Below, one piece after another: positions 12,889-23,013 of a stretch of 64,000 bases of DNA. The first letter of the stretch is position 1; every line of letters begins with the position of its first letter. Below the pieces are notes generated by a model that was not told where the DNA came from, ran no database searches, and saw only the letters and a program-made list of their open reading frames with translations. Source of the stretch: Slackia piriformis YIT 12062 (GTDB lineage: Bacteria; Actinomycetota; Coriobacteriia; Coriobacteriales; Eggerthellaceae); NCBI RefSeq assembly GCF_000296445.1, contig NZ_JH815198.1, positions 1,427,114-1,491,113 of the forward strand, read 5' to 3'. Position numbers and translations under genes: made by a program.

Positions 12889-12896
12889 CTACTGCA
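12813..12896. repeat. Four imperfect 20-21 base tandem repeats at the res 3' end
   Basis: On the minus strand the units begin GCAGTAGGCGG, GCGTCAGACGG, GCGTCAGGCGG and GCGATAGGAGG, each followed by a purine-rich AAAGG-like segment, at spacings of 20, 21 and 21. The first unit contains the TAG stop codon of the Res gene. Same theme as the repeat at the recQ boundary: extra copies of a gene's 3' end downstream of it. Confidence 0.75.
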
Positions 12897-15800
12897 TCAC
12901 CTTGTCCATCAGCTCGTCGTAGGTGCTCACGAAGTCGTAACGAACCTCGCCTTCGCCAAGCTGCTCGAAAAGTTTACGTGCGCATTTGATCTTGGCGTCT
13001 TCAGCCCCCTTCAAGTTCAACGTTTGCATAGAGCCCTTCGTCTCGGCAACGAAATAAATATGCTTCACAACGCCTTCGTTGAATGCGATTGCCCAGTCGG
13101 GCGCGTATTCTCCCACAGGAGTAGGAATGGCAAACGAACGCGGCAAGTGCGCAAACACGCATACTTCGCTGGAGTCTTCCAGGTCTTGCGCGAACTTGCG
13201 TTCCGTGTCGCTGTCGAGCACCGTCCAATCTTGTACGCCCTTCTTCGACGTAGGCAGCACGCGACTCAAACTTTCAGGCATGTCTTCGGTGAAAATCTCC
13301 GCCGCGTCATACTCGCCCACCACGCGGTTATAGCAAATATGCTCTACGACCATGCGCGCTTTTTCATCCACGATAAGTGCAGCCGTTTTGGCAATGAACT
13401 CTTCCGGGTTCACGCGAAACATAGCGAAACGATCGGGCGCGATGTCGGACAAAATGGCGGCCGCGCTTCTGCGAGTGATGCAGGCTTTGCTTGCAACTTC
13501 GCCCACCAAATCATACGCAGCCACCGAAACCTCATCGCCTTTGACCTCGAGCGTCTTGGTTTCCGCAGCTTTGAAGCTTTCGAGGGCCTCAAGTTGCTCA
13601 CGCGTTGTTTCGTCGCGCTGCCCACCCCGCTTCAGGCGATACCTTGGCGTAGACACCGACAAGTTGTCATTGATGCTTTTTACGGCATTACGACGAAGCT
13701 CAGCGGAATCGAACTCCACGCTATACGCGCGCTTGTGGTTGATGCGCGCCCACAGCTCCTGAAATTCCTTTTTTCGGAAGTTGTCGTTGAGTCTGTTGCT
13801 CGGTACCTTGGTGCCGAAGCCGTTGTCGTAGCGAACCGCGACCCCGGAGTCTTCTACGCTGTTCGCAATGCGTGCAATGTCTTTCGCGAAGCCGTACAAA
13901 TGCTCAGGCATATCCGAGTCGGGAATGGCATAAAGAACTTGCTCCGTGATTTCGCCAACAGGCATACCGTCCGGACCGATGAGCCTGTTGGCTTGCAGCG
14001 CATAGACGATTTGCTCGGCGTCCGCCTTCGTGAGCGTGTACTCGTTCACGCCATCTTGCACCAACGCATTGGCAAACAGGCTGACGTCCACCTTTTTCGG
14101 ACGCGTACGAAGCTCGTCTTTGGTCTCGCTCTGAAGCGACTTCACGAAACTGTCGTAGCCCTCGGACGCAATAACGGTCAGCAAGTTCACAGCATGGACG
14201 CCGTCACGTCCAAGGAACGCCTCGTCCTGGCGCGTACCATCCTGGTTCACGCACAGGCGCAAACCGCGGCCCACCTCTTGGCGTTTGCTGATATCGGAAT
14301 CGCCTGAACTTTTAAGCGTGCAAATCTGGAATACGTTAGGGTTGTCCCAACCTTCGCGCAGTGCCGAATGCGAGAAGATGAAACGGCACGGCTCCTCGAA
14401 AGACAACAGGCGTTCTTTATCTTTCAAAATAAGGTCGTAGGCACTCACGTCCTCGGAGAATTCGCTGCCGCGCTTTACTTCGCTATCCACCGAGCGCTTC
14501 GTTTTCTTATCAATCGAGAAATAGCCCTCGTGGACTTTCCGGTTAAGCGAGTCGCGCAGATAGTCCATATAGCCAGAATCGCACGCATCGGCAAGTTTCA
14601 ACTCCGCCAAACGTTCCTCAGCTGCACGCTCGTATTCTTCTTCGAAGATTCGTCCGTACTCGCCCACGCCCTCGGACCCGTCTTCCTCGTAGACACGGTA
14701 TTTGGCCACTTCGTCGATGAAGAAAAGGCTCAGGCACTTGATACCCTGGCGATACAGCACTTCTTCCTTCTGAAGATGCGAGAGAATGGTTTCGCGAATC
14801 TGGATGCGACGAAGGTCCTCTTCTGAAGAATCATTGGCAACCTGACCGCGATACAGCTTGTTATGGTTGTCGAATTCGACGTATCCCGCCTGCCCATTCT
14901 GATCGGGCACGATGCGCAGAATCTTGAACCCGTTTGCATACGCCTCAAGCTCGCCGGATGCCTGATAGATGTTATCAAGCTCGTCGAAAGTGCGAACCAC
15001 ACGCCCAAGCTTTCCGCTTTTCAGCTGGCGCGTGAACTCAATTATGGCGCGCGGCGGCTTGCTGGGACTCACCTTGATATCTTGCAGATACACATAGCCG
15101 TCAGTGCCGCGCATGCCCACCATCTCGATGCCCTTCACTTCAATGCGCTTGACCAGGCGTTCGTTATAAGCATCGAGCGGGTCAAGTTCGTACACGGCAT
15201 TGTGCCGATCTTTATGCGTGGCGGAATAGTTGAGCGAGAACAACGGCTTGAAGCGCTGCATGGCCTTGCGCGTGGCGCTACCCTTCTTGCCCATCTTCTG
15301 CGGTTCATCGATGATGAGAATGGGGTTCGTGGCCGAAATCACGTCGATAGGGCGGCGGCTACCGAATTCATCGCGCTCGGAAAACATAATGAGCGCCTCT
15401 TTGCTCTTGCCGCCCTCTTTCAACGACTTGTTAAACGCCTGCATGTTGATGACCATGACGGAAATATCCGCACGGCTGGCAAACGAGTCTATTTCGGTCA
15501 AACGGCTTGAATCGTACACGAACGGCCACAAGCTTTTGCCGTACTGTTCGTGAAAATGCTTCTTCGTGATTTCGAGAGATTTCGCAACGCCTTCGCGAAT
15601 GGCGACGCTCGGCACCACGATGATGAACTTCGACCATCCGTAGCGTGCATTGAGCTCGAACATGGTCTTGGTATACACGTACGTTTTGCCCGTGCCTGTT
15701 TCCATTTCCACGTCAAGTTCCACTGCGCCCAGATCACGATGCAGCTCCTTCGAAAGGAGCACTCCGTTCTTTCGCTGCATCTTCTTCACGTTGGCAAGAA

Positions 15801-16035
15801 GCTCTTCGGAGCCCAGGCGCAGCGGCGCGTTACGAAAGCCCGTGCCATCGTCCGTCGCAATCCCGTCATTCGCCTCGATAGCGCCCATGGTGGTCTGGCC
15901 GTGTTTATTCACGTTGCCCGTGTCTATGTCGCGCACATACGACAACGCATCGATTTTAGGCTGTCCGTCGAACACCTTCACCACAGCATCAGCCGCACGC
16001 GTTTGGTAATCGAGAACGGTAAATTTGAATTCCAT
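12889..16035 (-). CDS. Type III restriction enzyme, Res subunit
   Basis: Res cuts DNA together with the Mod methylase after ATP-driven communication between two unmethylated sites. The 1048-residue product has, in order: Walker A METGTGKT (111-118), motif II DEPQ (243-246) in place of DEAD, a helicase C-terminal region with QEVGRGLRLC, and a PD-(D/E)xK nuclease near the end, with PD at 979-980 and ETK at 998-1000. All needed motifs are intact, so it should be active. It is the last gene of the cassette; its ATG lies three bases after the AbiJ-like gene's stop. Its 3' end is repeated in tandem. The family call is secure; the recognition site is set by Mod. Confidence 0.95.
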   Translation of the reverse strand: MEFKFTVLDYQTRAADAVVKVFDGQPKIDALSYVRDIDTGNVNKHGQTTMGAIEANDGIATDDGTGFRNAPLRLGSEELLANVKKMQRKNGVLLSKELHRDLGAVELDVEMETGTGKTYVYTKTMFELNARYGWSKFIIVVPSVAIREGVAKSLEITKKHFHEQYGKSLWPFVYDSSRLTEIDSFASRADISVMVINMQAFNKSLKEGGKSKEALIMFSERDEFGSRRPIDVISATNPILIIDEPQKMGKKGSATRKAMQRFKPLFSLNYSATHKDRHNAVYELDPLDAYNERLVKRIEVKGIEMVGMRGTDGYVYLQDIKVSPSKPPRAIIEFTRQLKSGKLGRVVRTFDELDNIYQASGELEAYANGFKILRIVPDQNGQAGYVEFDNHNKLYRGQVANDSSEEDLRRIQIRETILSHLQKEEVLYRQGIKCLSLFFIDEVAKYRVYEEDGSEGVGEYGRIFEEEYERAAEERLAELKLADACDSGYMDYLRDSLNRKVHEGYFSIDKKTKRSVDSEVKRGSEFSEDVSAYDLILKDKERLLSFEEPCRFIFSHSALREGWDNPNVFQICTLKSSGDSDISKRQEVGRGLRLCVNQDGTRQDEAFLGRDGVHAVNLLTVIASEGYDSFVKSLQSETKDELRTRPKKVDVSLFANALVQDGVNEYTLTKADAEQIVYALQANRLIGPDGMPVGEITEQVLYAIPDSDMPEHLYGFAKDIARIANSVEDSGVAVRYDNGFGTKVPSNRLNDNFRKKEFQELWARINHKRAYSVEFDSAELRRNAVKSINDNLSVSTPRYRLKRGGQRDETTREQLEALESFKAAETKTLEVKGDEVSVAAYDLVGEVASKACITRRSAAAILSDIAPDRFAMFRVNPEEFIAKTAALIVDEKARMVVEHICYNRVVGEYDAAEIFTEDMPESLSRVLPTSKKGVQDWTVLDSDTERKFAQDLEDSSEVCVFAHLPRSFAIPTPVGEYAPDWAIAFNEGVVKHIYFVAETKGSMQTLNLKGAEDAKIKCARKLFEQLGEGEVRYDFVSTYDELMDKVMQ

Positions 16036-16038
16036 GAC

Positions 16039-16899
16039 CTACCCCTCCAAAGCCTCAGCATCGAATTGGACGAGGTAATTAACGAAAGCAGAGCAGGTCA
16101 CGAGCATGTATTTTGCCATCTTGAAGTCTACCGCGCTGAATTCACCACTCAAAGCATGACGAATCCCATCCTCGTCACTAGTAAATCCGTACATTCCCTT
16201 CCATGCTTTAGCGAGGGCGGGATGAACCCTACCTTGCTTTTCGAGTAGGTTAATTAGTTCTCCGAAACAAGTCTTGCCGCTATACGGAACAAGCACGGAC
16301 ACCACAGACTCAACTGCAGAAATGGCCTCTTTGACAACATTGCGGTAGTCTGGATTATCTCGGTCGGAAAATAGTTCGACTGCTCTTTGAATATGCTTTC
16401 GAGCTCCAGAATACTTGTCCTCAACCCTTAACGATTCAGACAGAGACGATAGCTCCTCTTCGCCGGAAATCTGGACGAGAACCCCGCCCGCAAATCTGAA
16501 CCCCGAAAGCTCATCTTCAAGAATGTCGTTGAAATCGCTCTCTACATTAGACAGGATATCTATATCTTCTTGGACAATGCATTCCATCAAATCGTAAACC
16601 GAAGCCCAGCTCCCTTTGAGAATTTCACGTTTAAGAAAATCCAGGAACAACGAAGAGTGGTACGGAAACTCATCGATTGGTTTACAGTAGAATTCGCACC
16701 AGACCGTTCGGGCGAGTGACTCCCCTATGCCAACTTGACCACCGTACTCGTTTTCACAATTCCACAACGCGACGAACAGCTCATGAACATAGTTGAATAT
16801 CGCAACCCGAAGCCGCAAGTCCATCCCGCTGATTTGAATTGATTCCCTCGCGGGCGTAATCCCCATTCGTTCGGAGAAAGTAAGAGGCCTAGGACCCAT
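16039..16899 (-). CDS. AbiJ-like abortive-infection protein
   Basis: A 286-residue protein placed between the mod and res genes with gaps of only two and three bases. The N-terminus (FSERMGITPARESIQ) matches what I know of the AbiJ N-terminal domain 4 family (PF18863). The C-terminal half (about 165-286) is helical with the block YGFTSDEDGIRHALSG, typical of the HEPN-like C-terminal part of these proteins, in which Arg and His are adjacent rather than in the classic RX4-6H spacing. Such proteins are linked to abortive infection, where the cell stops growth when phage overcomes other defences. Base composition is visibly more AT-rich than the flanking Res gene. The domain call is from memory; toxicity is inferred. 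Confidence 0.75.
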   Translation of the reverse strand: MGPRPLTFSERMGITPARESIQISGMDLRLRVAIFNYVHELFVALWNCENEYGGQVGIGESLARTVWCEFYCKPIDEFPYHSSLFLDFLKREILKGSWASVYDLMECIVQEDIDILSNVESDFNDILEDELSGFRFAGGVLVQISGEEELSSLSESLRVEDKYSGARKHIQRAVELFSDRDNPDYRNVVKEAISAVESVVSVLVPYSGKTCFGELINLLEKQGRVHPALAKAWKGMYGFTSDEDGIRHALSGEFSAVDFKMAKYMLVTCSAFVNYLVQFDAEALEG

Positions 16900-16901
16900 A
16901 A

Positions 16902-18887
16902 CTACACCACCTTGGTTTCGGTTTCGGGGCTGAGCGTTTTGAAGATTTCCTCAAAGTTGGCAAGGGCGTCGTCGCCGACGAAAGACGCATCGCGCAGCAC
17001 GGCACGCGAAGGTTCGCGCTCGGCCATGGCGCGAATGACATCTTCGGAAACTTCGCGGTCAAAGCACGCAAGCAATGCGTCGCCATCGACGGAATAAACC
17101 GTTTTGCCGCAGATATCGAGCTTCTCAACGCTTGCGGTGTAAGGAATTTGAAACTGCGGGAATAGCTGGAACAAGATATCCTCCGCCGTACGATTGGGCT
17201 TGAGGTTATCCGCCAGGCCAGAAAGCTGGTCCTGTTGGATGGCATCGGGCGTACGTTTCACGTCTTCAAAATTGGACGAGTCAATCTTGAGCACGCGGAA
17301 GCCGATGTCGGGAACCTTCTTGGGCTCTTCGCCAGGTTTGAGTTGCGCGTTGGATCCCTCCACTTCGGCCGCAATCTTGGCGCCCGCACGACGAATTCGC
17401 TCTTTGCCGATTTCGCAGATATTCTTGTAGCCGGCTTTGGCAGCCTCGCTCCCTTCCTTTGACGCCTCAGGCAGCTGCACCATGATGAATTTACGGTTAC
17501 CACCATCCTTGACATTAAGCTGCATGACGGCATGAGCGGTTGTGGCGGAGCCAGAGAAGAAATCGAGAACGATGGCATCGTTGACCACAACACTGGCAAT
17601 TCGCTCAACGAACGCCATTTGTTTAGGGTTGTCAAATGGCGTTGAAAAACCTTTCAGCATGTTTACGTCGGGACGCTGATCATCCGACATGATCGATTTG
17701 GGCCGCTGGGTCATGTTTTCCGCCAGATATCTCTTCAGCCGAGGAAGACTGCCATCAGTATGAAAATGAATCCTCCCTTCATCTGCGAGAGCCTCCATCT
17801 TCTGCCGGCTAAAACGAAAACCACCCGGAGGGACTGGGTCGGGTCTGCCTGTGATTCTATTGACCACGGGCTCCCTATTTCCGTTGGGAACTCCACCCAA
17901 ATCCGCCTTTTGATAAAGCCCTTTTTCGTCAAAATACCAATAGTTGGTAAAATCGATAAATCGAGGATACTTCGTTAAGACTTTGAGCTCCTCTGTAATC
18001 TCATCGGCAGACAGCCCCTCCTTCTGAAGCTGCTTAACTTTCGCCATGTATTCTCGAACGTTGTTCTTCTCAACGCCCCACTTTTCTTCCCCCATTGACG
18101 CCTTTAGAAGAGCAAGATCTTTTGCAGCAACAATGCAGTATTCGTGACTGACAGAAATAAACTGACTTTGATTTTTCGAGCTATTGGTATTTCTGACTAT
18201 TGTCGCAATTAGATTTATTGATCCAAAGACATTGCAAACCAATGTATACAGACGAGTGTATTCGCAGTCATCAATCGATATGAAAATAACCCCATCCTCG
18301 CTCAATAAATCCCTCGCAAGCACGAGCCGGGGATACATCATCGAGCACCAGTCGGAGTGGAACCTGCCGTTGGATTCCTTGTTTTCGTTATACGCAGTAT
18401 CAAGAACGTTGCCCTCCTCGTCGAAGGCGCCGTTCTCGGCACGCTCCTCTTCGGCAGTGCGCGCAAAGCTGTCGTTGTACACGAAGTCATGACCCGTGTT
18501 ATACGGCGGGTCGATGTAAATCATCTTGATTTTGCCGGCATACGTTTCACGCAGAATCTTGAGTGCATCAAGATTATCGCCCTCGATGTAGAGGTTCTCG
18601 GTGGTATCCCAGTTCACGCTCTCTTCGGGCGCGGGGCGCATGGTCTTGTCGATTTGGCGAATAGCCTCGGCGCGGGCACGCTGCTTGCCAGGCCAGGTGA
18701 ACTGATAGCGCTCGCGTTTATCCTCGGCGATATCGCCCACATGGGCCTTGAGCGCCTCGACGTCGATGCTGTGGCGAACGTTGCCGTCTTCATCCAGTAC
18801 TTCGGTCACAATGTCGGGAAACAACTCCGCCAACTTGGCGGCGTTTTCTGCAGCGATATCCGCCGTAGCAAGATCGACTTTTTCCAT
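16902..18887 (-). CDS. Type III DNA methyltransferase, Mod subunit
   Basis: Mod recognises the target site and methylates adenine with S-adenosylmethionine; it also directs Res. The 661-residue product has the beta-class order: catalytic motif IV DPPYNTG (126-132) first and the AdoMet-binding motif I FFSGSATT (443-450) later, with the target-recognition domain between. That middle part (about 225-420, bases 17630-18215) is distinctly more AT-rich than the two ends, which suggests exchange of the specificity region. The C-terminal part continues for about 200 residues, probably for Res contact. The start follows the DUF4391 gene's stop by two bases. Confidence 0.95.
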   Translation of the reverse strand: MEKVDLATADIAAENAAKLAELFPDIVTEVLDEDGNVRHSIDVEALKAHVGDIAEDKRERYQFTWPGKQRARAEAIRQIDKTMRPAPEESVNWDTTENLYIEGDNLDALKILRETYAGKIKMIYIDPPYNTGHDFVYNDSFARTAEEERAENGAFDEEGNVLDTAYNENKESNGRFHSDWCSMMYPRLVLARDLLSEDGVIFISIDDCEYTRLYTLVCNVFGSINLIATIVRNTNSSKNQSQFISVSHEYCIVAAKDLALLKASMGEEKWGVEKNNVREYMAKVKQLQKEGLSADEITEELKVLTKYPRFIDFTNYWYFDEKGLYQKADLGGVPNGNREPVVNRITGRPDPVPPGGFRFSRQKMEALADEGRIHFHTDGSLPRLKRYLAENMTQRPKSIMSDDQRPDVNMLKGFSTPFDNPKQMAFVERIASVVVNDAIVLDFFSGSATTAHAVMQLNVKDGGNRKFIMVQLPEASKEGSEAAKAGYKNICEIGKERIRRAGAKIAAEVEGSNAQLKPGEEPKKVPDIGFRVLKIDSSNFEDVKRTPDAIQQDQLSGLADNLKPNRTAEDILFQLFPQFQIPYTASVEKLDICGKTVYSVDGDALLACFDREVSEDVIRAMAEREPSRAVLRDASFVGDDALANFEEIFKTLSPETETKVV

Positions 18888-18889
18888 AG

Positions 18890-19504
18890 CTATTCCCCTT
18901 TCAGAGCGCGAAGCTCGGCCAAGGCCTGCTTGTACGTTCTGAAAGCGGCGTTGCGCTTGGCAGGCTGGACCTCCTTCGCATATTTCCGCTTGAGCTTGAT
19001 AACCTCGGCCTCAAGCTCGGCAATTCGTTCTTCTTGAGCCATACGCGCATCGACGTCTTCGACTTCCACATCGTCGAACAGCACCTGTGCGCACAGGCCA
19101 TCCCACACCTCGGCAAGCGAGGCGCCTCTCAACTCAATATTCATTTGTTCTTCGGCGATCCATCGCTCGCTGGCACGCAGCCCGTCGCGCACCACGGCAA
19201 GACACGCGCGACCCTCGTGGCAGCACGCCATAAGCATCTTGCGCGGCACCGCCGATGCAATGGCGTCGAGAGCTTTGCGAGGCAGTTCGTCCGTCTTGAG
19301 CACAATGCGCAGAACCGAGATTTCCTCTATGCTTCCACTGGTAGGAATGCCGCATGTCGCCTCCTTGATAGAAGCAACCACGCGCAGCTCTTCAATACCG
19401 TGAACGAATTCGTCCTTCACTGGTGCAGCAAGCGATAACCGCTGATAGAAAGCGTTTTTCGGCAGCGTCTGATCGACCGTTACCGTACTGGGCAGACCGT
19501 ACAT
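18890..19504 (-). CDS. DUF4391-type protein of the type III R-M cassette
   Basis: A 204-residue protein whose first part (MYGLPSTVTVDQTLPKNAFY) and later segment IDRKMLMACC-like core (here RKMLMACCHEGRACLAVV) match, from memory, the DUF4391 family that sits between SNF2-like helicase and mod genes in many bacteria. The C-terminal third is a charged coiled coil (about residues 155-200). The function is unknown; a bridge between the helicase and the methylase is possible but unproven. The start codon directly follows the helicase stop codon with no spacer. Confidence 0.75.
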   Translation of the reverse strand: MYGLPSTVTVDQTLPKNAFYQRLSLAAPVKDEFVHGIEELRVVASIKEATCGIPTSGSIEEISVLRIVLKTDELPRKALDAIASAVPRKMLMACCHEGRACLAVVRDGLRASERWIAEEQMNIELRGASLAEVWDGLCAQVLFDDVEVEDVDARMAQEERIAELEAEVIKLKRKYAKEVQPAKRNAAFRTYKQALAELRALKGE

Positions 19505-22500
19505 CTACCTCACCACCAAAAAGCACACGAGCTCGAAATCGTCGAGCCCCGCCACGTCGTTTTCCAAGAAACTCGTAGTGCCCGCACTGAAGAAGCTATC
19601 GACATCGGCTTCACGCTTTTCGCTCACCATAGACAGCACGGCCGCTTCGAGCAGCTTCGATGCATGGCTCATGTCGCGTCCGTCTTTGGTAGCGCGGTTG
19701 TATGCACGACAGAGTTTGGCATCGGGCTCGAACTTGCCGCGGCATAAACGACGCATGGCATCGAGGGTTTCCTTGGGGTCGAGATAGCCGTGCAGCGTCT
19801 CGCCATCATCTTTCACATACACCAGATAAAACGGATGCACAGGATTGCGCATCGCGGCGTCGAGTTCTTGATTGACGTTGCGCAGCACGAAGACGATGCC
19901 CGGCTCGTCGCCCGCCACCACGGCATTGATGCCTGCAGGCACGCGTTCAATGCTCGGATTCGCCTCGTAATACGCCACGAGGTCCATACGGAAATCGTTC
20001 AAGCCCAAATCAGTGATGGAAACGCCGCCCGCAACGTCCTCGAGGTCCACCACCTCGCTTTGCATCTGCTCGAGCTGCGCACGACGGTATTCAAGATCGC
20101 CCTTTTCGCCCTCGTTGATATAGTCGTCATCGCCCGTGGAAGCCATAACCGTGGCATGCATGCGGTTTTCGACGCGTTCCTTCAAATTGATGTACCTATC
20201 CAACGCGACATTGGGCCAGTAGTTCACCAGCTGAATAACATCGTTTTTCGACCCGATGCGGTCCACGCGCCCGAAGCGCTGAACCACGCGCACCGGGTTC
20301 CAGTGGATATCGTAATTCACCAAGAAATCGCCGTCTTGCAGGTTCTGGCCTTCGGAAATGCAATCCGTAGCAATAAGCAGGTCGATATCTTTGCCCGCCA
20401 GGCGCGCATACGCTTTATCGCGCTCCTTCGACACGGGGCTGAAACACGTTAACACTTCGGACAAATCGCCGCGCACGCCCGCAACCGTGGTTTTGCAGCC
20501 GCTTGTTCCCGTAACCTCGGCCATGCCCAGCCCGAGCTCGGCCGCCAAGGGTTTCAGCTGTTCGTACAGGTAATCGGCCGTGTCGGCAAACGCCGTGAAC
20601 ACGATGATTTTCTTATTTCCCTCATTAAGCGGATGGACAACCTTGTCGGAAATGACGCGCTTGAGGTCGACCAGTTTGGCATCACGGCCTGCATCGATAT
20701 CCTCGATCAAGCCCAGCAGCTCGGTTACGATCGCCACGTCGGATGCAATGTCGCGCTCCCACGACACCCAGTCCATATCGCGCAGGTCATACGGCGCCTT
20801 TTTGCTGCCTACCATGAACTCGATTGCATCGGCGTCGTCGAAGTCGAAATCGTAATCCGAACTTTGCAACTCTGGCACGCTTCGGCCCTTCGCAGCATTC
20901 GCCTTAAACGCGGCAATGGCATCGAGAGTACTATTCATGCCCGCCAGAACGCGCTCGAGCGTCAAGCGAAACGACGCGACGGAACTTTCGAGGCGCTTGA
21001 GCAAATTGGCGGCCATCAGACGCTGCACGCCGCGTTCGCGCCCCTCGACCGAAAGGTTGCCGCCTTGCTGGACATATTTATGGCGCTTGCTCGGCTGCAC
21101 ATATTTGATCGGAACGTAAATGGAAAGCTCCAACGCATACAGACGGTCGGCAATGCGGTCATACGTCGCCGCCCCCTCCTGCACGGAGAGGTCGGGGCGA
21201 CGTGAAACGGGCCTGTTGCGGCGCGGGAACGGCCCTATCGCGCTCGCATCGTAGTAACGCTGGATATGGCTGCGCGAACGCGCCACTGTCACCTGGTCGA
21301 GCACGCGGAAGAAATCCATGTCGAGACTGGCGGTAAGCGCCTCGGTTGTTCGCTTGTCGGCATCGAGCTCCTGCCATTCGTTGAACGCTTTCTGCGCATG
21401 ACGAAAGACGTTTTCGATATTGGTATCAAGCCCAAGGCGTTCGGACCACGCGCTCGAGTCGCCCTGGTACGCCAGCGCCAACTGATTGCGCAGGTCGCGA
21501 AAACGATTGTTCACCGGCGTGGCGGAAAGCATGAGCACCTTGGTGGGTACGCCGTCGCGCACCACTCTGTTGAGCAGGCGCTGATAGCGGTTCTCTTTGA
21601 TTTCCTCGCCGTCTTTGGGCGCTTTGGCGGAATCGTCGCCATTGCGGAAATTATGGCTCTCATCGATGACAACCAGGTCGTATGCGCCCCAGTTGATGGT
21701 TTCAAGGTCGAGGCCTGTTGCCGATGTGCCACGTTCGCGCGAAAGGTCGGTATGGTAAAGCACGTCGTAGCGCAGGCGGTCTTCGGCTATGGGGTTGTTA
21801 CGTTGATTGTTGCGATACATCAGCCAGTTGTCGCCGAGCTTCTTGGGACACAACACCAAGACGTTGCGGTTTAGGCTTTCGTAGTATTTCACCACGGCCA
21901 ACGCCGTGAAGGTTTTGCCCAGACCAACCGAATCGGCCAGAATGCAGCCGTTGTAGGTTTGCAACTTGTTGACAATGGCAAGCACGGCATCGCGCTGGAA
22001 ATCGTAGAGCAAATTCCAAATCTTGCTCTCGCGAAAGCCGACGCCTTCCTTAGGGAGCTCATCCGCTGTGATGTCGTCCAAGAACTCGTGGAAGATGCGG
22101 TAAAGCGCCGCATAATACACGAGCTCGGGTGGGTTTTTGCGATACATCTGCGCGATGTTGTCCACCACGGCATCGGTGACATCGTCGAGGTCCTCGGAGT
22201 TCCATGCCTGCTCGAACGTCTTCAGCAGCTGGCAAGACGGCGAGGTTTCCTGGCGCACGATGGCGCTGTACGAATCGGCGGAGCGCTCCACTCCAAGATC
22301 GACGGTCGTGAACCCATTGATGGGAAGGTACGACACCGTATCGGCCACGCCGCAAGAATCCGTCACTTCCGCAGTAAGCGCAGGCGGCAACGATGCAACA
22401 TTGCGAAACGACCTGAAGCGAGCCTTCCTTCTTATCCAGTTAGCACATTCGGTTGCCACGGCCTTCTGCGTAAGTTCATTGCGCAGACGAATTTCCAGGT

Positions 22501-22762
22501 CAGTGCCGCCAACGCTACGTTCGCGATTGAGCCGTGGAATATAGAATTCGCGCTGTTCTTTGGCGTGGCGTTCTTTAAGAAACGCAGGCGAAGTGAAAAT
22601 AAACCTGAACTCGTCGATGCTTTCCAGCTGCTCACGAAGTTCGCGATATGCGTACATGGAAAACACCGACGAAGCGATGGAAACACTGCCGCCTTCTTTC
22701 AAGACGGCAACAAGGTCATCTTTAAGGATATGCGTGCGATTATCGAAGAATCCGGACTGCAT
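19505..22762 (-). CDS. SNF2-type helicase with N-terminal PLD-like domain
   Basis: A 1085-residue protein. Residues about 1-190 resemble the phospholipase D-like nuclease module seen in this helicase class, including NGFTTVDLG at 149-157, but no HxK catalytic pair is visible. A superfamily 2 motor follows: Walker A DSVGLGKT (277-284), motif II DESHNFRN (367-374), SATPVNNR, and the C-terminal motif VI QRFGRVDRIGS. It probably moves along duplex DNA. It is the first large gene of the cassette, three bases after a 60-residue ORF and directly abutting the DUF4391 gene. Relatives occur beside type III Mod/Res genes, suggesting a role in making or supplementing restriction. Confidence 0.88.
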   Translation of the reverse strand: MQSGFFDNRTHILKDDLVAVLKEGGSVSIASSVFSMYAYRELREQLESIDEFRFIFTSPAFLKERHAKEQREFYIPRLNRERSVGGTDLEIRLRNELTQKAVATECANWIRRKARFRSFRNVASLPPALTAEVTDSCGVADTVSYLPINGFTTVDLGVERSADSYSAIVRQETSPSCQLLKTFEQAWNSEDLDDVTDAVVDNIAQMYRKNPPELVYYAALYRIFHEFLDDITADELPKEGVGFRESKIWNLLYDFQRDAVLAIVNKLQTYNGCILADSVGLGKTFTALAVVKYYESLNRNVLVLCPKKLGDNWLMYRNNQRNNPIAEDRLRYDVLYHTDLSRERGTSATGLDLETINWGAYDLVVIDESHNFRNGDDSAKAPKDGEEIKENRYQRLLNRVVRDGVPTKVLMLSATPVNNRFRDLRNQLALAYQGDSSAWSERLGLDTNIENVFRHAQKAFNEWQELDADKRTTEALTASLDMDFFRVLDQVTVARSRSHIQRYYDASAIGPFPRRNRPVSRRPDLSVQEGAATYDRIADRLYALELSIYVPIKYVQPSKRHKYVQQGGNLSVEGRERGVQRLMAANLLKRLESSVASFRLTLERVLAGMNSTLDAIAAFKANAAKGRSVPELQSSDYDFDFDDADAIEFMVGSKKAPYDLRDMDWVSWERDIASDVAIVTELLGLIEDIDAGRDAKLVDLKRVISDKVVHPLNEGNKKIIVFTAFADTADYLYEQLKPLAAELGLGMAEVTGTSGCKTTVAGVRGDLSEVLTCFSPVSKERDKAYARLAGKDIDLLIATDCISEGQNLQDGDFLVNYDIHWNPVRVVQRFGRVDRIGSKNDVIQLVNYWPNVALDRYINLKERVENRMHATVMASTGDDDYINEGEKGDLEYRRAQLEQMQSEVVDLEDVAGGVSITDLGLNDFRMDLVAYYEANPSIERVPAGINAVVAGDEPGIVFVLRNVNQELDAAMRNPVHPFYLVYVKDDGETLHGYLDPKETLDAMRRLCRGKFEPDAKLCRAYNRATKDGRDMSHASKLLEAAVLSMVSEKREADVDSFFSAGTTSFLENDVAGLDDFELVCFLVVR

Positions 22763-22765
22763 GAG

Positions 22766-22948
22766 CTATACACCAGCCCGAATCGCAGACGTGCGCAGGT
22801 TCTCAACGACATTTTCTTGCAAGCATCGGCGAGCATGCACGAAAAGCTCGTGTGCGCATTCGTCAATCGCTACATCGCATATGTCATGCTTCTGGGAGAA
22901 GCGCCCCGCGTTGAACCCCCCCCCGGAATATACTCCGAGGTCCAGCAT
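22766..22948 (-). CDS. Small 60-residue leader ORF of the restriction cassette
   Basis: The ATG is preceded by AAGGAG at seven bases (AAGGAGTTATAAATG), one of the best ribosome sites in the region, and the stop lies three bases before the helicase ATG. The peptide starts MLDLGVYSGGGFN and contains DICDVAIDECAHELF, predicted helical and acidic; I do not recognise it. It may be a real small protein (regulator, inhibitor or anti-restriction safety factor) or a leader whose translation opens the helicase start. The helicase seems complete without it, so it is not an obvious broken N-terminus. Confidence 0.6.
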   Translation of the reverse strand: MLDLGVYSGGGFNAGRFSQKHDICDVAIDECAHELFVHARRCLQENVVENLRTSAIRAGV

Positions 22949-22968: not shown

Positions 22969-23013
22969 CCCCGATAGCCGCGCGAATTATCGCATGTGGC
23001 CATCGGGGGTCAT
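22969..23013 (-). promoter_or_regulatory. Inverted repeat enclosing a putative cassette promoter
   Basis: Arms CCCCGATAGCC (22969-22979) and GGCCATCGGGG (22998-23008) pair over 11 positions with one G-T. The 18-base centre contains GATAAT on the minus strand (22991-22986), with ATGACC 16 bases upstream (23013-23008) as a possible -35. The site could be an operator for the cassette, a terminator for ychF, or both. Confidence 0.5.

Follow-up and report, generated by a model that had tools for sequence, protein, structure and literature searches.

What does a short open reading frame (ORF) do at the head of a restriction operon? The question is raised by a stretch of 64,000 nt from Slackia piriformis YIT 12062 (hereafter the window; the genome has 2.12 Mb), in which six minus-strand genes occupy positions 22948-12889, with gaps of 3, 0, 2, 2 and 3 nt in the order from leader to Res. 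Our answer is that the first of them, a leader of 60 codons, is quite probably a translationally coupled switch, in which slippage of a tract of nine G (G9) would turn the whole operon on and off. This tract was overlooked in a first-pass annotation of the same DNA, and it is what gives the leader its meaning. The features concerned are the following:

22916..22924, minus strand: G9 tract of the leader, beginning 24 nt downstream of the A of the start codon
22766..22948, minus strand: leader ORF, 60 codons (60 amino acids), sequenced in its open (ON) phase; 3 nt separate its TAG stop codon from the helicase ATG
19505..22762, minus strand: SNF2-type helicase, Walker A GLGKT and DESH present, HKD absent
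18890..19504, minus strand: DUF4391 protein, the constant partner of helicase and Mod
16902..18887, minus strand: type III Mod, DPPY at 126 and FSGS at 444
16039..16899, minus strand: AbiJ_NTD4 / PDC-S32 protein, cargo in the Mod-Res interval
12889..16035, minus strand: type III Res, Walker A GTGKT, DEPQ, and a PD...ETK nuclease motif at 979

We compared 43 loci, the window included. The helicase start is visible in 41 of them, of which 15 (again with the window, and from three families) have an upstream tract and 26 have none; these 15 are related to each other, and seven are near copies. A separate family search added 16 loci, most of them from a remote branch of the helicases, and none has such a tract. 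The design is common to all 15: a ribosome site, then, 24-32 nt ahead of the tract, an ATG or GTG, and then a run of G9-G12. In every case exactly one of the three phases reaches a stop codon that leaves 0, 1 or 3 nt to the helicase ATG, and the other two end 29-133 nt earlier; in other words, a ribosome site and a repeat whose number shifts the stop, the marks of a phase-variable leader, occur together in 15/15. The peptides themselves, from 28 to 61 codons long, share almost nothing between subgroups, and family searches with the leader peptide gave no match. Since the leader frame of G017 and G019 differs from that of the helicase, the design does not in general serve to make a fusion by stop-codon readthrough. 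G017 has a second tract, G12, some 140 bases upstream of the one in its leader (L019:8375-8386).

How easily could this arise by chance? Upon shuffling of the sequence 3' of the tract, a phase ending within 10 nt was obtained in 5-56% of cases, depending on the locus; the product of these chances for eight chosen representatives is 2.7e-7, a value to be taken as a guide only because the representatives are related. The position of the tracts is also telling: of the 21 G/C runs of at least nine in 42 loci, 16 are located no more than 300 bp upstream of the helicase or its stub (odds ratio 185 by Fisher test, p 9.6e-25). The stub is that of L003 (Collinsella sp. AK_207A; L003:9787-10007), where the helicase is cut to 42 residues, the tract (G10) remains and no leader phase reaches the stub, a natural contrast but a single case. 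The 15 tract loci group with the tract-free G030 in a single clade (support 0.78) of the tree built from the 43 helicases, a pattern suggestive of a single origin and a single loss. Taken as a comparison of sequences, the conserved leader with one open phase is well supported as a design. A 21-base leader pattern had no matches in viral contigs.

As sequenced, nine of the tract loci are open (the window, G107, G019, G204, G295, G190, G355, G212 and G366) and six are closed (G106, G017, G217, G290, G314 and G401). Two pairs are especially close: G295 and G290 have 70/70 identical bases before the tract and 68/70 after it, with G10 versus G9, and G190 and G401 have 69/70 and 67/70, with G9 versus G10. 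We used one genome per species, and all comparisons of tract length are therefore between species; the one-G differences, which like the design itself are observed directly, represent change between lineages because the genomes belong to different species.

The mechanism that we propose would work as follows. Replication slippage would add or remove one G in the leader tract. In the ON phase, ribosomes would read the leader through to its stop 0-3 nt before the helicase ATG, and the terminating ribosome would clear the structure over the helicase ribosome site and re-initiate there. In the two OFF phases, ribosomes would stop 29-133 nt earlier and the helicase ribosome site would stay folded; alternatively, the untranslated RNA would be lost to polarity (polarity through Rho would work to the same end). 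The window genome would be in the ON state. In ON cells, Mod and Res would restrict foreign DNA with the assistance of the helicase and the DUF4391 protein, and the AbiJ-like protein would probably be a PrrC-like guard. Slippage within a strain, the coupling, the ON and OFF expression and all the protein functions are what we infer from the loci compared here.

The signals around the leader bear on this scheme to different degrees. Two of them are in the window:

22749..22784 (approximate ends), minus strand: predicted RNA hairpin that covers both the ribosome site and the start of the helicase, not beyond shuffles
22986..23013, minus strand: promoter-like site upstream of the leader, weak (9/12 matches, 0.4 expected in shuffles)

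The ribosome site of the helicase is more often paired in the tract loci than in 25 tract-free relatives (paired probability 0.65 versus 0.49, p 1.4e-4) and the folding is stronger (z -1.78 versus -0.59, p 0.012), the helicase starts of the tract-free loci having been chosen by frame; this group difference is seen in the sequences themselves. The clearest structure is a 14-bp hairpin at the helicase ribosome site of G212 (z -2.41), those of the other loci being weaker or differently placed. In a subgroup of seven loci, the ten innermost hairpin pairs are kept in 7/7, with one-sided changes only. No promoter-like site was found in the leader regions of L128 or L101. Transcription attenuation was considered and rejected, as there is no terminator-like site in the three leader regions scanned.

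Several of our own observations weigh against the proposed switch. Tract differences were seen between species only and none within one species, and homopolymer length can be mis-assembled. G030 retains the operon without a leader. The window hairpin is no stronger than those of shuffled sequences (z -0.76), and the structural difference between the two groups may be due in part to base composition and relatedness. Covariation is slight, with a two-sided change at one outer hairpin pair in one sequence. Finally, the helicase Shine-Dalgarno match of seven loci (-14.5 to -14.9) is stronger than that of the leader; some independent starting is therefore possible, which speaks against strict dependence on the leader.

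Could the tract be something else? It might be an RNA or promoter element (affecting promoter spacing, or acting as a small RNA target or a G-rich structure), the frame pattern being incidental. Homopolymers 5' of genes can indeed act on transcription: in H. pylori, type IV restriction genes are preceded by T tracts at a distance of 46-47 bp (PMC12003011), and a small RNA targets a G repeat in the leader of an mRNA (PMC8295292). We nevertheless find this explanation unlikely: one phase reaches the helicase start in 15/15 loci despite non-homologous leaders of such different lengths, the tract always stands behind a ribosome site and a start codon, and the sole promoter-like site found in the window region is upstream of the leader.

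A second view, that of the first-pass annotation, takes the cassette as a fixed layered system of six genes, with the AbiJ-like protein as an integral suicide arm that fires if restriction fails. Much of the description on which it was built stands. The six minus-strand ORFs, with gaps of 0-3 nt, are all present, and a single operon with a type III Mod/Res core is supported. In profile searches Res matches PADLOC REase_III (2.8e-271) and Mod matches MTase_III (6.3e-195), and the two genes are adjacent members of a type III restriction-modification (R-M) system, in which Mod carries the DPPY and FxGx motifs and Res combines a helicase with a nuclease domain. The DUF4391 identity is likewise borne out (E = 2.4e-31; the closest named match, at 77%, is on a contig of a Slackia metagenome-assembled genome, L002), as is that of the AbiJ-like protein (PDC-S32 1.3e-89, AbiJ_NTD4 1.2e-19, the profile covering most of the protein); neither protein has a significant relative among solved structures. 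The "PLD-like/SNF2 helicase" is right in its second half only. Its best PADLOC model is "HKD+Snf2" C3a139 (1.9e-113, residues 179-1084), and the SNF2-type match, Walker A and DESH are there, but the HxKx4D motif is missing from the first 250 residues of all 43 helicases, the window helicase included. A role as HKD nuclease is thus rejected; the label "nuclease-like" should be dropped, and "PLD-like" is a name only. The helicase core is of the SNF2 type, as in DISARM DrmD, but membership of DISARM was also rejected (DrmD scores 121 bits against a cut-off of 610, and no other DISARM gene is in the cassette).

What does not hold is the constancy of the cassette. No AbiJ match was found in any of the 34 other loci in which both Mod and Res are visible, and the AbiJ-like gene must be rejected as a constant part of the operon; such slots hold other genes in other loci. 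The leader is kept in 15/16 helicases of its own clade and not outside it. AbiJ relatives occur in 6/396 class genomes (the window genome is included in this and all other genome counts), and the PDC-S32 model matched in 3/396 phylum genomes. The gene order hsdM-hsdS-AbiJ-hsdR in L119 (6483-13579) and L120 (6561-13604) parallels Mod-AbiJ-Res, and in L118 (2768-5147), a short contig, an AbiJ relative lies directly behind the HsdS gene. In the prr operon, the guard gene lies between the modification/specificity and the restriction genes. Two identical relatives (L116 and L117) are solitary, and for the plasmid relatives of Leptospira and Aquicella no restriction gene is listed within 7 kb; altogether, four of the seven other AbiJ-type genes with inspected surroundings have no adjoining restriction gene.

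The idea of an abortive arm is not new, because PMC3710099 already proposes that HEPN proteins encoded in R-M operons act once restriction is neutralised, lists AbiJ among the families accompanying R-M genes and gives Rx4-6H as the HEPN active site. PrrC, embedded in the EcoprrI R-M operon (PMC12707154, PMC3710099), is the published analogy. The window resembles it in having a HEPN-type candidate gene within an R-M operon, in the modification-restriction interval, but the window protein has no ABC ATPase match (AbiJ_NTD4 is the sole family matched) and no canonical Rx4-6H, and the operon is of type III, not IC. The relatives have no Rx4-6H at a shared position either; an adjacent R-H pair (247-248) is invariant across five aligned AbiJ-type proteins. 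In the literature searched, PDC-S32 is mentioned in no paper and DUF4391 in one. Rx4-6H is missing and four of the seven other AbiJ-type genes are without a restriction neighbour, so that the protein is at most a candidate suicide RNase, even if the hsdS-hsdR slot lends some support to the abortive arm that the published prediction describes. Tight gene spacing notwithstanding, we regard the fixed six-gene system as a quite improbable description; the cassette appears instead to be a type III restriction operon, of predicted function, with one optional cargo gene.

It could also be argued that the leader is a working small protein, a regulator or an antitoxin, which happens to hold a G tract. 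Indeed, 18 of 25 tract-free relatives have, at that place, an ORF of 65-127 residues whose end is at most 10 nt from the start of the helicase and which carries a ribosome-site-like match; several of these ORFs, and most of those read, resemble ribbon-helix-helix regulators. When six were scanned, five matched DUF6290, CopG, NikA, Arc or HicB, all below cut-off, and one matched nothing; we take these models to be of the ribbon-helix-helix kind. A protein function for the tract-bearing leaders is very unlikely all the same, in our opinion, as their peptides differ in length, have little in common between subgroups and match no family, and the tract would in any case render such a protein switchable. 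We would rather say that the slippery leader may stand in for the regulator gene. A chance homopolymer or an assembly error in an ordinary operon can hardly be credited: a run of this kind is not rare in 64 kb (as many G8 matches as in the window turned up in 29 of 100 shuffles), but the tract recurs at the same place in 15 assemblies, with the placement odds ratio given above, in a genome that has 7 distinct tracts of at least G9 per 2.12 Mb.

If the leader is a coupled switch, what is it closest to? Its closest mechanism is the pil1 leader of S. gallolyticus, in which repeats in the leader peptide of pil1/pil3 shift the stop codon relative to a hairpin terminator (PMC3894217). Both share repeats in a leader ORF that is preceded by a ribosome site for itself, a stop that shifts and gating of the whole operon; pil1/pil3 have GCAGA repeats, a transcription terminator and pilus genes, whereas the window leader has a G tract, a stop 0-3 nt from the first gene, a restriction operon and, in the three regions scanned, no terminator-like site. 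Its closest function is that of phase-variable type III systems, in which the repeats are part of the mod or res gene or lie next to it (PMC11868660, PMC12003011). The likeness is that simple repeats switch a type III system; the difference is that the repeat here has a leader to itself, from which it would switch the first gene along with the genes downstream. The sole G/C run of at least nine in the window is in the leader and not in mod, other repeat types not having been scanned. Transcriptional phase variation of a type III system of H. pylori was reportedly described by de Vries in 2002, as cited in PMC12003011. Among the matches listed in our literature searches, none concerned a phase-variable leader that heads a restriction or defence operon, and none joined phase variation and homopolymeric tracts with Collinsella.

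We lean towards the conclusion that a G-tract leader without a conserved peptide stands at the place that a small regulator-like gene has in most tract-free relatives and gates an entire restriction operon together with its cargo, producing a bet-hedging population. If so, some Coriobacteriia-type bacteria would switch a whole restriction operon, including an abortive-infection candidate, by an element that gene annotation ignores, and surveys looking for repeats inside mod or hsd genes would miss it; leaders would need inspection as well. Each population would hold cells with and without the complete defence set, a bet between safety from phages and DNA uptake or self-damage, which could account for differences in phage resistance among close relatives sharing the same genes and would offer a test case for bet-hedging in defence. 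It would also raise the question of how a cell going from OFF to ON withstands its own Res while its chromosome is still unmarked by Mod.

The operon and its parts are otherwise ordinary, and the core is widespread. Helicase relatives are present in 26/138 family genomes (E up to 1e-60) and 61/396 class genomes (E up to 1e-200), DUF4391 relatives in 13/138 family genomes, and the order helicase-DUF4391-Mod-Res recurs among the compared loci. Of 101 plasmid records with a helicase relative, three were inspected: E. coli pLAO18 and a Mycolicibacterium plasmid have the core order of the window, and Enterococcus p116-3 has a similar one but with a "hypothetical" gene in the DUF4391 position; unlike the window, none of the three has an AbiJ-type gene in its listed annotation.

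Other genes are found between DUF4391, Mod and Res in several loci: an Old/Gabija-like ATPase in L024 (10484-12178), SIR2 and HerA in L122 (5828-8556), Fic in L107 (6401-7441) and L126 (5943-6962), and PDC-S02 with PDC-S05 in L026 (6463-8676). Cargo proteins of L106 and L113 have weak Argonaute-associated matches at most, and the cargo names in L106 (SIR2, HerA) and L109 were given by likeness to scanned proteins, not by a scan. With defence-type genes nested in it, this kind of operon looks like a docking frame. We also noticed an opposite-strand ORF of 88 residues in the Mod-Res interval of L002 (12550-12816) and, in G399 (L125:5810-9709), two consecutive Mod-like genes followed by a single Res.

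All seven distinct tracts of at least G9 in the genome, that of the leader included, are on the minus strand. The genome scan gave these six others, each G9 or G10:

G000 C1:198656 (L058), minus strand
G000 C1:1000658 (L060), minus strand
G000 C1:1007961 (L061), minus strand
G000 C1:1395626 (L063), minus strand
G000 C1:1669895 (L065), minus strand
G000 C2:656 (L067), minus strand

Switching by G tracts may be general in this species. The tract of L058 is in phase near the start of a TetR-like regulator gene and that of L061 in phase near the start of a membrane protein gene (both labels by reading), that of L063 precedes a repeat-rich surface protein, and that of L065 lies inside a LuxR-like region.

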